Of a stretch of DNA of 64,000 nt, positions 36,107 through 41,207 are shown one piece after another. The notes beneath the pieces were generated by a model. The model was not told the origin of the DNA. It saw only the letters and a program-made list of their open reading frames with translations, and searched no databases. How positions within the stretch are numbered: position 1 is the first letter of the stretch; every line of letters begins with the position of its first letter. The translations under genes were made by a program, and so were the position numbers. Source of the stretch: Caballeronia insecticola (GTDB lineage Bacteria > Pseudomonadota > Gammaproteobacteria > Burkholderiales > Burkholderiaceae). The stretch covers positions 434,001-498,000 of the forward strand of contig NC_021287.1 of the NCBI RefSeq assembly GCF_000402035.1, read 5' to 3'.

Positions 36107-36241
36107 GGCAGCGACTCCTGTGGATGCCTGCCTGCTATAACGCCGTGCGCCGCGCGCGGTGGACGCAGCGGCTGTGACATTTGTAAGCAAAAGTCGTGTC
36201 GCGCAGGCGCTTCGAACTCGATCTTCGATAGCCTAGGGTGA

Positions 36242-36283
36242 ATACATATGTTGCGTTAATTTTGTCGATGGCAACATATGTAT
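36242..36283. promoter_or_regulatory. Predicted RpiR-type operator at the binding-protein promoter
   Basis: Perfect 13-base inverted repeat ATACATATGTTGC (36242-36254) / GCAACATATGTAT (36271-36283), 16-base spacer. TTGCGT (36251-36256) and ACATAT (36274-36279), 17 bases apart, form a plausible promoter whose -35 and -10 lie inside the two arms, so a bound protein would block polymerase. The core GCAACATATGT recurs at 39247-39257. Confidence 0.7.
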
Positions 36284-36308
36284 CATTCGAAACGAAATCG
36301 AGGAAGCC

Positions 36309-37226
36309 ATGAAGACGAAGCCGCTGCTCGCATCAGCATCCGCGTCCGCATTTGTGCTCGCCGCGTTGTCGCTCGTCGCGGGGACGAGCCACGCGCAGAC
36401 CGGCCAGCCGACGCTCGCCAAAATCCAGAGCGTCAATCTGATCGCCATCGGTCATCGCGAAACGTCCGTGCCGTTTTCGTATGTCGATGCGAACAACGAG
36501 GTCATCGGTTTTTCGCAGGACTTGTGCAACAAGGTCATCGATGCGATCAAGGCGAAGACGAAGCATCCGGACCTGCGTGTGCGCTTCATTCCGGTGACGT
36601 CGCAGAATCGCATTTCGCTCGTGCAGAACGGCACGGTCGATCTCGAATGCGGCGTGACGACGAATCTCACGTCGCGGCAAAATCAGGTGGCGTTCTCCGA
36701 CACGTTCTTCGTCGCGACGACGCGTCTGCTCACGAAGAAGGATTCGGGCATCAAGGACTTTCCCGATCTCGCGGGCAAGACTGTCGTGACGAATCAGGGC
36801 ACGACGTCCGAGCGCATTCTTCGCAAGATGAACGAAGAGAAGAAGATGAACATGAGCATCATCAGCGCGAAGGATTACGGCGAAGGGCGCGCGACGCTCG
36901 AAACCGGTCGCGCGGTGGCCTACATGATGGACGACGTGCTGCTCGCGGGCACGCGTTCGCTGACGGCGAAGCCATCGGACTGGGTGCTGGTGGGCACGCC
37001 GCAGTCGTCGGAGGCGTATGGCTTCATGATGCGTCGTGACGATCCCGAGTTCAAAAAGCTCGTCGACGACGCCATGAGTCAGGCGATGAAGAGCCCCGAG
37101 ATCAGGACGATGTACGACAAGTGGTTCATGAAACCCGTGCCGCCGAAGAACATCAACTTCGATTTCCCGATGAGCGAGACGATGCAGAAGCTCTATGCCG
37201 AGCCGAACGACCGCGCGTTCGAATAA
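36309..37226 (+). CDS. Periplasmic amino-acid binding protein (GltI-like), orphan
   Basis: 305 residues. Signal peptide to about residue 29 (AHA|Q), then a family 3 solute-binding domain of the glutamate/aspartate GltI type: VPFSYVDANNEVIGFSQDLCN, VDLECGVTTNLTSRQNQVAFSDTFF, GKTVVTNQGTTSERIL, EAYGFMMRRDDPEFK. No ABC permease or ATPase gene is near, so it must share another transporter or act as a sensor. Its promoter carries the operator shared with the aminotransferase gene, suggesting joint control by the RpiR regulator. Confidence 0.93.
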   Translation: MKTKPLLASASASAFVLAALSLVAGTSHAQTGQPTLAKIQSVNLIAIGHRETSVPFSYVDANNEVIGFSQDLCNKVIDAIKAKTKHPDLRVRFIPVTSQNRISLVQNGTVDLECGVTTNLTSRQNQVAFSDTFFVATTRLLTKKDSGIKDFPDLAGKTVVTNQGTTSERILRKMNEEKKMNMSIISAKDYGEGRATLETGRAVAYMMDDVLLAGTRSLTAKPSDWVLVGTPQSSEAYGFMMRRDDPEFKKLVDDAMSQAMKSPEIRTMYDKWFMKPVPPKNINFDFPMSETMQKLYAEPNDRAFE

Positions 37227-37253
37227 CGCGTCTGGCTACACGCGCGGCCACGC

Positions 37254-37808
37254 TCATTCCGCGAAGGGCAAATCCGTTTGCCCTTCGGCGCGCATGCCGA
37301 AGGTGTTCAGCGTCATCGCGACGAGCGCGTAATAGCCCAGCAAGCCGACGAGGTTCACCACCACCGTATGACCGAAACGCGCGACGGCGGCGTCATACGT
37401 GGCGTCGCTTACGCGCTTCGTTTCGTAGAGCTCGGTCGAAAAATTGAAGATGAGCTGGTCGTCGGCATCGGCGAAATGCGGCGTGGCGCCGGTGCGCAGC
37501 GCTTCGGCGACATCGGCGGGCAAGCCTGCATCGAGCGCGATCGGATGATGAATGTGCCATTCCGCCTGCGAGCGCCAACGCGCCGCCGTCACGAGAATAG
37601 CCAGTTCCGACAGCCGCAGCGGCAGCCCCGTGTTGTAGCGGCAAAACGCGCCGAGCTTCTGGGCGTTTTGCGCAAGTTCGGGGCTGAAAATCCAGCCGAG
37701 AAACGGTCCGTTGAGATTGCCGCGCGGACCGCTCAGGATGTCGTGGAGCACGGCCTTCTGCTCGTCGGACGCGGTCTTGATCTCAAAGTCGGGAAGTCGC
37801 TTGTGCAT
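37254..37808 (-). CDS. Carboxymuconolactone-decarboxylase / AhpD-family protein
   Basis: 184 residues, all-helical CMD fold. The conserved block is RLSELAILVTAARWRSQAEWHIHHPIALDAG, with E-x-x-x...W-x-x-H pattern but no CxxC, so it is not a thiol peroxidase; relatives act as decarboxylases or isomerases on ring-cleavage or lactone products. It follows the aminotransferase by 40 bases on the same strand and is likely co-transcribed. Substrate unknown. Confidence 0.88.
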   Translation of the reverse strand: MHKRLPDFEIKTASDEQKAVLHDILSGPRGNLNGPFLGWIFSPELAQNAQKLGAFCRYNTGLPLRLSELAILVTAARWRSQAEWHIHHPIALDAGLPADVAEALRTGATPHFADADDQLIFNFSTELYETKRVSDATYDAAVARFGHTVVVNLVGLLGYYALVAMTLNTFGMRAEGQTDLPFAE

Positions 37809-37848
37809 GCTGCGCTCGATTTAAGTGGGATGCGTCGTCGGGGTGTCG

Positions 37849-39192
37849 TCACGCGGCCTGCGCGCCGATCGCGGAGAGGGCGCCGTCGATCGCATCGGAA
37901 AGACGCTCGACGATGGTTTCGATCTGCGCGCTCGTGGTGATGAACGGCGGCGCGATGAGCACGTGATCGCCGATGCGGCCATCGACGGTGCCGCCCATCG
38001 GATACACCATGAGGCCGCGCTTCATCGCTTCGCTCTTGATGACCGCGTGCAGTTTGTGCTTCGGATCGAACGGCGTTTTGCTCGCGCGATCCTGCACCAG
38101 TTCGACGCCGGTAAAGAGGCCGCGGCCGCGCACGTCGCCGATGAACGGATGATTCGCATGACGCTCGCGCAGCAGGGCGCGCAGTTGTTCGCCGCGCGCC
38201 TTCACGTTGTCGAGCAGCTTTTCCTCGACGATGACCTTCTGCACTTCGAGCGCCGCCGCACACGCGGTTGCGTGACCGATATACGTGTGACCGTGCTGAA
38301 AGAAGCCCGAGCCGCCGACGATGGTATCGAAAATTTCGTCGCTCACGAGCGTCGCGCCGATTGCCTGATAGCCCGCGCCGAGTCCCTTCGCGATGGCGAG
38401 AATGTCGGGCGAGACGCCGTCTTCCTCGCACGCGAACAAGTGACCGGTGCGGCCCATGCCGGACATCACTTCGTCGAGAATCAGCAGCACGCCGTAGCGG
38501 TCGCAAACCGCGCGAATCTTGCGGAAGTATTCGCGCACGGGCGGCACCGCGCCCGCCGTCGCGCCGACGACCGTTTCCGCGACGAACGCCGCGACCGTCT
38601 CCGGCCCGAGTTCGAGGATCTTCGCTTCGAGTTCGTCGGCGAGACGTTGCGCGAAGGCTTCGTCGGTTTCGCCCGCGCGCTGCTCGCGATACGCGAAGCA
38701 CGGACTCACGTGATGCGCTTCGATCAAAATCGGCAGGAACGGCTCGCGACGCCACGCGTTGCCGCCGATCGCGAGCGCGCCGAGCGTGTTGCCGTGATAG
38801 CTCTGACGTCGCGCGATGAAATGCCGCCGCGCCGGCTCTCCCTTCTCGACGAAATACTGGCGCGCGAGCTTGAGCGCCGCTTCCATTGCCTCCGAGCCGC
38901 CGGAGACGAAATACACGTGACCGAGATTTTTCGGCGCGGCTTCGATGAGCAGATCGGCGAGTTCCTCGGCCGGTTCCGTCGTGAAGAACGAGGTATGCGC
39001 GTAAGGCAATTGCTGCACCTGACGCGTGATTGCCTCGATCACGCGCGGATGGCTATGGCCGAGGCACGAGACGGCCGCGCCGCCGCACGCGTCGATATAG
39101 CGCTTGCCTGTCGAATCGACGATCTCGATGCCGTCGCCGCGCACGGCGACAGGAAGCTTGGCGCGCGGCGCGCGATGAAATACCGTGGTCAT
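37849..39192 (-). CDS. Class III PLP-dependent aminotransferase
   Basis: 447 residues, fold type I. PLP lysine K269 in AIAKGLGAGYQ; other signatures LILDEVMSGMGRTG and FVSGGSEAMEAALKLARQY. Class III enzymes use omega-amino donors such as beta-alanine, GABA, taurine, diamines or other amines; the substrate is not determinable here. ATG at 39192 after GCAGGACC. Its promoter holds the CAACATATGTTG palindrome. With the binding protein and RpiR regulator it forms a probable uptake-and-transamination module. Confidence 0.93.
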   Translation of the reverse strand: MTTVFHRAPRAKLPVAVRGDGIEIVDSTGKRYIDACGGAAVSCLGHSHPRVIEAITRQVQQLPYAHTSFFTTEPAEELADLLIEAAPKNLGHVYFVSGGSEAMEAALKLARQYFVEKGEPARRHFIARRQSYHGNTLGALAIGGNAWRREPFLPILIEAHHVSPCFAYREQRAGETDEAFAQRLADELEAKILELGPETVAAFVAETVVGATAGAVPPVREYFRKIRAVCDRYGVLLILDEVMSGMGRTGHLFACEEDGVSPDILAIAKGLGAGYQAIGATLVSDEIFDTIVGGSGFFQHGHTYIGHATACAAALEVQKVIVEEKLLDNVKARGEQLRALLRERHANHPFIGDVRGRGLFTGVELVQDRASKTPFDPKHKLHAVIKSEAMKRGLMVYPMGGTVDGRIGDHVLIAPPFITTSAQIETIVERLSDAIDGALSAIGAQAA

Positions 39193-39232
39193 GGTCCTGC
39201 CCTGGAAAAGCGTGCACAACACGCGATGTATT

Positions 39233-39263
39233 ATTCTACATCGACAGCAACATATGTTGTCAA
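39233..39263 (-). promoter_or_regulatory. Aminotransferase promoter with palindromic operator
   Basis: Minus strand: TTGACA (39263-39258) as -35, with TAGAAT (39238-39233) or TGTAGA as -10. The 12-base palindrome CAACATATGTTG (39248-39259) overlaps the -35 and spacer. The core GCAACATATGT is the same as at 36242-36283. Confidence 0.7.
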
Positions 39264-39305
39264 CGCCCGGTCGACAAACAACGCGCCGCGTCAGGACCGA
39301 TCTGA

Positions 39306-40166
39306 CTAGCTCGCCGCGTAGGCGCCTTGCGAATGCAGCGCGGCTTCGGCCTGTTCGAGATTCGCGACGGCGTCCTTGCCTTCGAGCGCGAGCAGATGCG
39401 CGACGAGCATTTCCGCCAGCGCCGACGCCGCGACGAGCGACGGAAAGAACGACGGCGAATCGTGCGAGAAAATCAGCGTGTGATCCGCATTCAGCGCGAT
39501 GGGCGACACGGCGCTGTCGGTGAGCGCGATCAGCTTCGCGCCGCGCTCGATCGTCGCCTGCGCCACTCGCACGGCTTCGACGGAATAGGGCGCGAAACTC
39601 ACGACGATGGTCGCGTGCCGCTTCTCTATCGCGCGCAATTGCATTTCGAGCGTCCCGGCTTCGCCTGACACGAGGCTCACGGACGGACGAAACAGCCGAT
39701 ACCCGTAGAGCAACCCGAACGCCACGGGATAACACGAGCGAAACCCCGCGACGTGCACGTGCGGCGCCTTCTTCAACGCCTTCGCCGCTTCAACGACGCT
39801 CCCGGCGTTCTGCGCGAGCGTGAGTTCGAGATTGTGCGCCTGGGCGTGCGCGAGATCGCGGCTCAGGTGATGATCGGGGCCGCCTTTCACGAGCGAGCGG
39901 GCGCGCGTGGTCAGCGGTTCCGGGCGGGTGCGCACGCGGCTCACGAAGATCTCGCGCAATTCGTTCCAGCCGGGAAAGCCGAGTTGCTGCGACAGACGGA
40001 CCATCGCGGCGGGCTGGACGTTGGCCCGCTCGGCGACCTTGCGCATCGAGAGGACGGCGACTTCGTCGGGATAGTCGAGCAGGAAGGCGGCGCCCGCTTG
40101 AAATTGCGGGCTCAGGTCGGGAAAGCGGTCGCGGATGGTCGCGGCGAGTTGATCGAAAGTGGGCAC
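39306..40166 (-). CDS. RpiR/MurR-family transcriptional regulator (HTH plus SIS)
   Basis: 286 residues. N-terminal helix-turn-helix of the RpiR type (VAVLSMRKVAERANVQPAAMVRLSQQLGFPGWNELREIF) and a C-terminal SIS domain (HVHVAGFRSCYPVAFGLLYGYRLF...IVVSFAPYSVEAVRVAQATIERGAKLIALTDS) that usually binds a phosphosugar or amino-sugar, though amino-acid catabolism is another known setting. GTG start at 40166. It precedes the aminotransferase gene on the same strand with a separate promoter between. It is the best candidate to bind the CAACATATG sites. Confidence 0.93.
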   Translation of the reverse strand: MPTFDQLAATIRDRFPDLSPQFQAGAAFLLDYPDEVAVLSMRKVAERANVQPAAMVRLSQQLGFPGWNELREIFVSRVRTRPEPLTTRARSLVKGGPDHHLSRDLAHAQAHNLELTLAQNAGSVVEAAKALKKAPHVHVAGFRSCYPVAFGLLYGYRLFRPSVSLVSGEAGTLEMQLRAIEKRHATIVVSFAPYSVEAVRVAQATIERGAKLIALTDSAVSPIALNADHTLIFSHDSPSFFPSLVAASALAEMLVAHLLALEGKDAVANLEQAEAALHSQGAYAAS

Positions 40167-40247
40167 GGACGAAGGTCGGATGGCGGCGTGTCGGATGCGC
40201 TATTTAAACACGCCGCGCCGCAACCGAATTCGAATGCGCGCGAGCGT

Positions 40248-41207
40248 TCAACCGGTCGCGCCGGTCGGCACCTGCGCCACCGTGAAGGTTTCGGGCGCGG
40301 CCGGAATCGCCGTGGCATACGCGCGGCCCAGACGCTTGTATCCCTGAATCGACGGATGAATTTCGTTGGTCCAGTCGCCGTCGGGACCGTCGGAGTCTTC
40401 GCTTGCCGGCGTCAACGTGCCGACGAGGCTCGCGAAATGGATATTCGCGCCGGCCACGCCTTGCGCCGCGAGCCGCGCGTTGATGTCCGGCTGACCCGCC
40501 GCGCCGACGAAGAACGCCTGCCACGAATCGAGCAGATACGTCACGACCGCACGCCAGTCCTCTTGCGGGATGGCGTAGGCAGGGTCCGTGAACGCCTTGA
40601 ACAGCCACGGTCCGATCTTTCCCGCGACGACCGGCGCATTGCGCGGCTGGGCGATATCGTAGGAATGAAAGACGATCGGCACGCCCTGGCTCTGGCTGCG
40701 CGGATCATCGCGCTTGGCGATGATCTGCCGGATGCAATCGGTCATTACCGTGCGAAACGCGCTCCATCCTTCCGGACGAACGTAGTGACTGCCATCGGCG
40801 CTGGGCAGCACGGCGGCGCGTTCGGCGACGGTGCGCAGCAGGCGCATCGAGGCTTTGGTCGGATTGGCGTCGCCGGGCATGGTGAGGATGGCATCGAAGA
40901 GATCGTTGCCGCCGGCGGAAAACAGGAGCGCGTCCCATCGACACGCTTTTCCGCCGCACAGCACGCCGACGTAGTCCGCTTCGGATTTCCAGTCGACCAT
41001 TTGCTGCAAGGTCTTGCCCGGCGAGGCGAAGGTGACCGCGCCGCAACCGTCGTCGAGCGCGATGTTGGCGAGGATGTTGGTGGTGAGCGCGGGCGGCAGG
41101 GCGCCGATCGAGAACCAGGAATCGCCTTGCGCCAGAAACTTGCGCTTGGCGGCATCGAACTGGAAATTGGCGCGGTTCGGAAAGCTGACGATCATTCTCG
41201 TGCTCAT
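40248..41207 (-). CDS. SGNH/GDSL-type hydrolase
   Basis: 319 residues. SGNH blocks: block I AQGDSWFSIG (nucleophile S30), block III SAGGNDLFDAI, block V DWTNEIHPSIQGYKRLG with the D-x-x-H pair. The family de-esterifies lipids, acetylated sugars or other esters. No signal peptide, so cytoplasmic. ATG at 41207 follows AGGGGAAACGAGC. It borders the low-GC patch but itself has typical base composition. Confidence 0.88.
   Translation of the reverse strand: MSTRMIVSFPNRANFQFDAAKRKFLAQGDSWFSIGALPPALTTNILANIALDDGCGAVTFASPGKTLQQMVDWKSEADYVGVLCGGKACRWDALLFSAGGNDLFDAILTMPGDANPTKASMRLLRTVAERAAVLPSADGSHYVRPEGWSAFRTVMTDCIRQIIAKRDDPRSQSQGVPIVFHSYDIAQPRNAPVVAGKIGPWLFKAFTDPAYAIPQEDWRAVVTYLLDSWQAFFVGAAGQPDINARLAAQGVAGANIHFASLVGTLTPASEDSDGPDGDWTNEIHPSIQGYKRLGRAYATAIPAAPETFTVAQVPTGATG

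Follow-up and report, generated by a model that had tools for sequence, protein, structure and literature searches.

An RpiR-family regulator encoded in a 64,000-nucleotide stretch of the genome of the soil bacterium Caballeronia insecticola (NC_021287.1; referred to here as the window) likely represses two promoters close to its own gene, one in front of a gltI-like gene for an orphan solute-binding protein and one in front of an operon that encodes a class III aminotransferase and a CMD-like protein. Repression would act through an operator for two dimers, and the pathway that the genes serve would act on a Gln/Glu-type amino acid derivative, an amide or an N-acyl compound. The regulon at the centre of this reading is well supported and very likely; the original prediction, made from the letters of the window, had proposed it, and it appears to be right and wider than was thought. 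The sites, their layout, their conservation and their co-occurrence with the regulator are read directly from the DNA. The sites also amount to more than shared words, as the promoters hold two sites about 30 bp apart.

The relatives examined were the best 80 of 194 named loci, found through the RpiR protein alone and without use of the motif. They are the nearer relatives, with an RpiR at least 72% identical to that of the window, and belong to Caballeronia, Paraburkholderia and Trinickia, some being deposited as Burkholderia. The best named match to the window RpiR is 98% identical (Burkholderia peredens LMG 29314) and many Caballeronia proteins follow at 92-95%. An aminotransferase, C45 or GlnH gene lies downstream on the same strand in 77 of the 80 loci (the exceptions are L155, L165 and L168), and the site was sought in the 400 bp that precede the first of these genes. 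All 77 operons have CAACANNTGTTG, perfect in 72 and with one mismatch among the ten fixed letters in five. Absence of the motif upstream of orthologous genes had been named in advance as the outcome that would speak against the regulon, and the motif stands before every one of these operons. Short AT-rich palindromes can occur by chance, and the repeats could in principle be without function, but Markov shuffles of the same stretches (7,700) gave a perfect CAACANNTGTTG in 0.04% and a one-mismatch copy in 0.6%, which contradicts this explanation and leaves it hardly tenable.

The two central bases of the palindrome vary among the relatives (TA, AA, CA, GA, TT, AT, TG, CC), so constraint falls on the two half-sites and not on the 11-mer GCAACATATGT that had been put forward as the shared element, although that 11-mer is indeed present at the sites. 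Counts were taken from the 77 operons because column conservation in an ungapped alignment of 70 promoters is biased at the positions fixed by the search pattern. The site precedes whichever gene opens the operon, be it the aminotransferase, the C45 hydrolase or GlnH, and it stands before the operon even where nearly 4 kb of other genes part the regulator from it (L116, L118, L126, L128). A palindrome near the genes that are presumably controlled, as looked for in an RpiR/MurR system, is found in all 77 operons. In P. piptadeniae and Trinickia mobilis (L183, L184), RpiR relatives head a glnHPQ-C45 operon with a variant operator, and no aminotransferase gene was found in that operon.

The second site is seen at +29 to +31 from the palindrome, where TGTTG is complete in 43 of the 77 operons and has four of five letters in 13 more, compared with 0.3% and 4.9% at random places in the same loci. 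The gltI gene is present in 31 of the 80 loci, and two sites lie 29-30 bp apart in 25 of these 31 gltI promoters. In nineteen, a pair of ACATATGT sites is spaced by 30 bp (29 in L136), and the six of the C. sordidicola group (L140-L145) have AACATATGTTGT and then CAACATATGG exactly 30 bp on. The gltI promoters share the two-site design of the aminotransferase promoter, with two better sites. One such site and a copy with changed letters are found in L119, L127 and L133, and one clear site in L137; in L131 and L132 gltI is broken and both of its sites are degraded. Decay of gltI and/or the aminotransferase gene is seen in L047, L048, L131-L133 and L138, and L132 and L133 are candidate symbiont genomes. 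The aminotransferase gene of L133 is broken and its operator is intact.

In the window, ATACATATGTTGC (36242-36254) and GCAACATATGTAT (36271-36283) are complementary at 13 of 13 positions with 16 nt between them, which confirms the perfect 13-base inverted repeat reported before gltI, and this inward-facing pair is unique within the 6.96 Mb genome. The 12-base palindrome CAACATATGTTG is likewise present where it had been placed (39248-39259). The claim that three genes share an operator holds for gltI and the aminotransferase gene but not for the CMD-like gene, which follows 40 bp after the aminotransferase gene and has no site of its own. Allowing up to one mismatch, GCAACATATGT has four matches in the window against 0.32 expected, a number reached in 1 of 100 shuffles; two of the four are the two strands of one palindrome. 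The genome-wide motif search suggested in the original prediction gave four copies of the exact 11-mer, three of them in the window, and none of the reversed control. The degenerate CAACANNTGTTG has two copies in the genome (reversed control 0), and CAACATATGTTG with one mismatch is found in three places (reversed control 2).

Other candidate targets in the genome were rejected. The other CAACANNTGTTG copy, C1:2996683, lies inside a 735-codon open frame, which escaped listing under a stricter codon filter. The fourth genomic copy of GCAACATATGT, at C1:2336140 before an MFS gene, is probably no RpiR site. There, ACATATGT is retained in 5 of 21 orthologous upstream regions, its own genome included, and the shorter GCAACATATG in 13 of 21, mostly as GCAACATATGG and also in G011, a genome without an RpiR orthologue. 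The resemblance of GCAACATATG to the second gltI site of the C. sordidicola group speaks for a target, but it is probably a promoter element. The MFS gene is divergent from genes that by eye resemble xanthine dehydrogenase. Autoregulation of rpiR was also set aside, the best site match in the 300 bp upstream having 4 of 10 letters wrong.

Regulator and site also occur together across genomes. A full-length RpiR (at least 75% identity) is encoded in 23 of 37 genomes of the genus, 17 of which have the exact 12-mer; in the remaining six (G005, G008, G016, G019, G022, G031) a variant form, CAACAAATGTTG for example, precedes the operon. Neither the exact 12-mer nor an intact orthologous aminotransferase gene was found in any of the 12 genus genomes without an RpiR orthologue (0/12 for each), of which G002 is only 60% complete. 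G027, without an RpiR orthologue, has a broken 75% aminotransferase fragment and a 58% homologue. The rpiR gene is broken in G009 and G025, and G025 retains the 12-mer. The exact 12-mer is present in 79 of 398 genomes of the family and the reversed control in eight. When 20 exact 12-mer places were opened in other genera, 15 lay at most about 310 bp from the operon's first gene; in L106 the 12-mer is 2.6 kb before the aminotransferase gene.

Genus g35 is probably Burkholderia, because its RpiR is 67-71% identical to that of the window, like four named Burkholderia records (68-71%). Ten genomes of this genus were tested, and in all ten rpiR is separated from the operon by more than 0.8 Mb or sits on a different contig; seven of the ten were opened at rpiR and showed no module gene next to it. 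In a further sample of 30 g35 genomes, which includes two of the ten, 28 have the aminotransferase gene, and the upstream stretch was fetched in 20 of the 28. All 20 have a perfect CAACANNTGTTG before glnH, then glnP, glnQ, C45 matches and the aminotransferase gene, with CATCGCATGTTGC or CATCGCGTGTTGC 30 bp beyond the palindrome. Genes are shortened in L255, L251 has a 1.8-kb gap between glnP and glnQ, and L268 has a second perfect palindrome further upstream. At five distant RpiR loci (27-34% identity, L060-L064), the fetched stretches lacked ACATATGT as well as the other genes of the window, C45 and GlnH not being sought there.

Among Enterobacterales, 11 records matched and three were opened; these three are plasmids from Pantoea dispersa, P. 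ananatis and Phytobacter diazotrophicus (L278, L279, L280), with an RpiR about 42% identical to that of the window. Their genes are arranged rpiR-aminotransferase-CMD-glnH-glnP-glnQ-C45, the third module gene being annotated as hypothetical in Phytobacter. The CAACA motif is absent from the three loci. The gap between rpiR and the aminotransferase gene holds in each a palindrome of the type GATTCA-AA-TGAATC, which is perfect in P. ananatis and has one symmetry mismatch in P. dispersa and Phytobacter, where the right halves read TGGATC and TAGATC; in all three loci the word TGAATC lies exactly 30 bp upstream of the right half. Half-site length, the 2-bp centre and the 30-bp repeat would therefore seem to be kept with changed letters, a layout that is only suggestive because the three stretches are alike (mean column identity 84%) and were counted without a shuffled control. 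In Comamonas, rpiR lies beside a GltI-like gene (45% identical) and the CAACA motif is absent. The available part of a study that traced the aphA1 resistance gene to Klebsiella michiganensis chromosomes gives glnHPQ, a C45 gene and rpiR as its neighbours (PMC12670165), and this neighbourhood may be the same module.

Could another transcription factor bind the palindrome, with RpiR a bystander? The separation of rpiR from the operon in the probable Burkholderia genus and the LysR gene in some loci would fit such an arrangement. It is nevertheless very unlikely, given that site and RpiR co-occur across genomes, that LysR is present in only 7 of 80 loci, and that the site letters of the Enterobacterales differ along with the regulator while the 30-bp layout stays.

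RpiR regulators are known mainly as sugar-phosphate sensors, and an SxSGxT-type loop in the SIS domain marks sugar-phosphate binding. The window protein has the N-terminal HTH_6 and C-terminal SIS domains of the RpiR/MurR family in profile searches. Its SIS loop reads SFAPYS where the 4ivn chain, which we take to be Vibrio NanR, has SSSGST, and it is thus not a serine/threonine loop of the SxSGxT type. Each SFAPYS position is 97-100% conserved among 87 sequences, that of the window included. Five related RpiR proteins at 27-34% identity likewise have no SGST, so the change is a feature of the branch and not of this gene. Because the loop is changed, the effector is presumably not a sugar phosphate.

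The fullest module consists of rpiR, the class III aminotransferase, the CMD-like protein, a GlnHPQ-type importer and a C45 amide hydrolase. The C45 autoproteolytic hydrolase is present in 31 of 80 loci (at least 50% identity), and all 31 have the GCTT motif, whose Cys is the C45 nucleophile. The enzyme of L096 belongs to the family by profile (NF040521, 260.5 bits, cut-off 85) and has this nucleophile motif. A close GlnH is found in 3 of 80 named loci and in 20 g35 loci, and that of L052 matches 4f3p, deposited as a glutamine-binding periplasmic protein, with 456 bits. Around the aminotransferase gene of a few Caballeronia and Paraburkholderia loci there is also a LysR gene (7/80), an MFS transporter (8/80) or an AtzE-family amidase (8/80), and a D-aminoacylase-like enzyme (552 bits to 1m7j) is present in 6 of 80 loci.

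The gene assignments of the original prediction (GltI-like, CMD-like, class III aminotransferase, adjacent RpiR) agree with the profile matches. The CMD-like protein stays below the PF02627 cut-off (20.9 vs 23 bits) and is therefore named CMD-like only; relatives with at least 55% identity occur in 75 of 80 named loci, and a relative from Pantoea that is 37% identical carries the CMD family annotation. The window GltI-like protein falls in the GltI subfamily of the GltIJKL importer and has 359.6 bits to 2ia4/2vha (DEBP type). No permease or ATPase genes lie beside it, its neighbours being the CMD-like gene and genes without such matches. A 57% paralogue at C1:324949 is accompanied by permease- and ATPase-like genes, and the permease of that system could serve the orphan. 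On the other side of rpiR, a gene for 319 amino acids (40248-41207) has no Pfam or NCBIfam match, and at the thresholds used it stands beside rpiR only in the close relatives L115 and L088.

Import, hydrolysis and then transamination of an amino acid amide or N-acyl amino acid are proposed because the importer, C45 enzyme, D-aminoacylase and amidase fit such a sequence. The substrate may be an amide or N-acyl derivative of a Gln/Glu-class amino acid, a tentative assignment with somewhat less than an even chance of being correct. A variant is glutamine itself, by the transaminase-amidase route known from biochemistry. The original prediction had guessed at uptake and transamination of an omega-amino compound such as gamma-aminobutyric acid, beta-alanine or taurine, and many omega-transaminases are, like this enzyme, of class III. 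The guess fits poorly with a relatives' operon that has a glutamine-type ABC importer and, frequently, the C45 amide hydrolase, and in a few loci the D-aminoacylase-like enzyme and the AtzE-family amidase. The transport partners, of GlnHPQ and DEBP/GltI type, belong to families named for alpha-amino acids, and an omega-amino substrate is rather unlikely. A pathway like the chitin oxidation controlled by OngR, which the D-aminoacylase relative had brought to mind, was rejected as the core module is found without that enzyme in 74 of 80 loci. Aminotransferase homologues (58-63%) in 4 of 113 other genomes of the class yield no pathway hint, because no other module gene was detected in the surrounding 11-14 kb.

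Repression is the simplest reading of the promoter because the palindrome overlaps TTGACA and the second site is found beyond the AT-rich block that is read as the -10 element, so that a tetramer would cover the promoter. TTGACA is found at the same place in 70 of 77 operons (counted by hand). The RpiR protein would thus be a local repressor of gltI and of the aminotransferase-CMD operon. One dimer would sit on the CAACA-NN-TGTTG palindrome that overlaps the -35 element, and a second about 30 bp (three helical turns) on, at a weaker site in the aminotransferase promoter and an equally good one at gltI. A tetramer across the promoter would keep RNA polymerase out until it is released by an amino compound, not a sugar phosphate. 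Once induced, the genes would serve the uptake and breakdown of a glutamine/glutamate-like amino acid in the form of an amide or N-acyl derivative, in the order importer or binding protein, amide hydrolase and transamination, with the CMD-like protein as a further member. We infer binding, repression, the tetramer, the effector and the substrate from sequence, and it is solely the 30-bp spacing of the sites that suggests the dimers and tetramer on the operator.

Several observations weigh against repression as described or against the proposed pathway. The second half-site is weak (three of five letters or fewer) in 21 of 77 operons. Four of the 20 palindromes opened in other genera (L101, L102, L103, L105) have no module gene nearby, their fetched stretches having been compared with C45, GlnH, aminotransferase, CMD, RpiR and GltI. 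The TTGACA promoter originally described does overlap the palindrome, but it is not a consensus promoter: a scan with 16-18 nt spacers gave no site in 36150-40300, and since the spacer to TAGAAT is 19 nt, the aminotransferase promoter of the window is a prediction. The window locus has the aminotransferase, the CMD-like protein and the orphan GltI, but no hydrolase beside the operon, and the substrate hint comes from part of the family because D-aminoacylase (6/80), amidase (8/80), C45 (31/80) and close GlnH (3/80) are each found in some loci. Finally, SpNanR, itself an RpiR protein, is proposed in the available part of its description to be an activator bridging from a palindrome to a degenerate half-site that lies 23 bp downstream (PMC12713135). 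RpiR might likewise be an activator or dual regulator, with an effector-bound tetramer that bridges palindrome and half-site and aids the polymerase. In the present case the sites occupy a blocking position, the main palindrome overlapping the presumed -35 element and the second site standing beyond the presumed -10 element, and activation is unlikely.

Table 1. Genes, putative operator sites and probable promoter elements, numbered from the first letter of the window
Feature	Position	Strand	Basis
RpiR/MurR-family regulator	39306..40166	-	PF01418 35.0 bits (cut-off 28.3), PF01380 47.1 bits (cut-off 25)
Class III aminotransferase, PRK07483 type	37849..39192	-	NF005685 828.4 bits (cut-off 485)
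CMD-like protein, second gene of the aminotransferase operon	37254..37808	-	PF02627 20.9 bits (cut-off 23)
gltI-like orphan solute-binding protein (SBP_bac_3)	36309..37226	+	NF008063 405.8 bits (cut-off 375)
Putative operator 1 of gltI, GCAACATATGTAT on the minus strand	36242..36254	-	exact inverted repeat with 36271-36283
Putative operator 2 of gltI, GCAACATATGTAT	36271..36283	+	inverted-repeat partner of 36242-36254
Putative main palindromic operator CAACATATGTTG	39248..39259	-	relatives' operons: 72/77 perfect CAACANNTGTTG, 5/77 one mismatch
Putative secondary half-site CATCGCGTGTTG	39217..39228	-	centre 31 bp from the centre of the main palindrome
Probable -35 element TTGACA	39258..39263	-	sequence; overlapped by the main operator
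Probable -10 element TAGAAT	39233..39238	-	by eye; AT-rich conserved block in the 70-promoter ungapped alignment

A wider picture is possible, with a likelihood only just short of even. The module may be an exchangeable catabolic cassette of beta- and gammaproteobacteria, also on Pantoea and Phytobacter plasmids, for a glutamine-class amide or N-acyl conjugate and so far undescribed; its branch of RpiR proteins would detect an amino compound with a changed SIS pocket and would span a pair of sites separated by three helical turns, site and regulator diverging together. No description of a regulon of RpiR, aminotransferase, C45 enzyme and glutamine importer was found in the open-licence literature searched, regulon databases lying outside the search. 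If an RpiR branch with a changed ligand loop controls amino-compound genes, a defined regulon of two promoters opens a direct way to test its effector and pathway. A 30-bp two-site layout that is kept despite changed half-site letters and gene content would also offer a clear test of how an RpiR tetramer reads DNA.

Among known systems, MurR of E. coli is also an RpiR-family repressor and is said to bind two adjacent inverted repeats; it differs in its effector (MurNAc-6-P), its amino sugar genes and its site. The module shares its binding-protein and importer families with GltI/DEBP (2ia4, 2vha) and GlnHPQ, whereas the GltI of the window stands without permease or ATPase genes beside it. OngR of Pseudoalteromonas is an RpiR repressor too, and the ong cluster has a D-aminoacylase-family deacetylase and a putative D-amino acid deaminase; however, it serves an oxidised chitin sugar pathway, and the gene list in the available part of the source has no aminotransferase, glutamine importer or C45 enzyme (PMC9537276). 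The HexR regulon was, like this one, found by comparative genomics in Proteobacteria, but it concerns central carbohydrate metabolism, and HexR is the sole regulator given as RpiR family in the available part of that study (PMC5343134). SpNanR of Streptococcus pneumoniae, as far as the available part of its description goes, is the RpiR protein for which one promoter carries both a palindrome and, downstream of it, a degenerate half-site, proposed to be bridged by a tetramer for activation; it binds ManNAc-6-P and has its half-site 23 bp downstream (PMC12713135), whereas the protein of the window has no SxSGxT-type loop and the two sites here, 29-31 bp apart, lie over the presumed promoter. 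RpiR regulation is unchanged in principle; the new features are the pair of sites set 30 bp apart, the amino-compound module and the altered effector loop.

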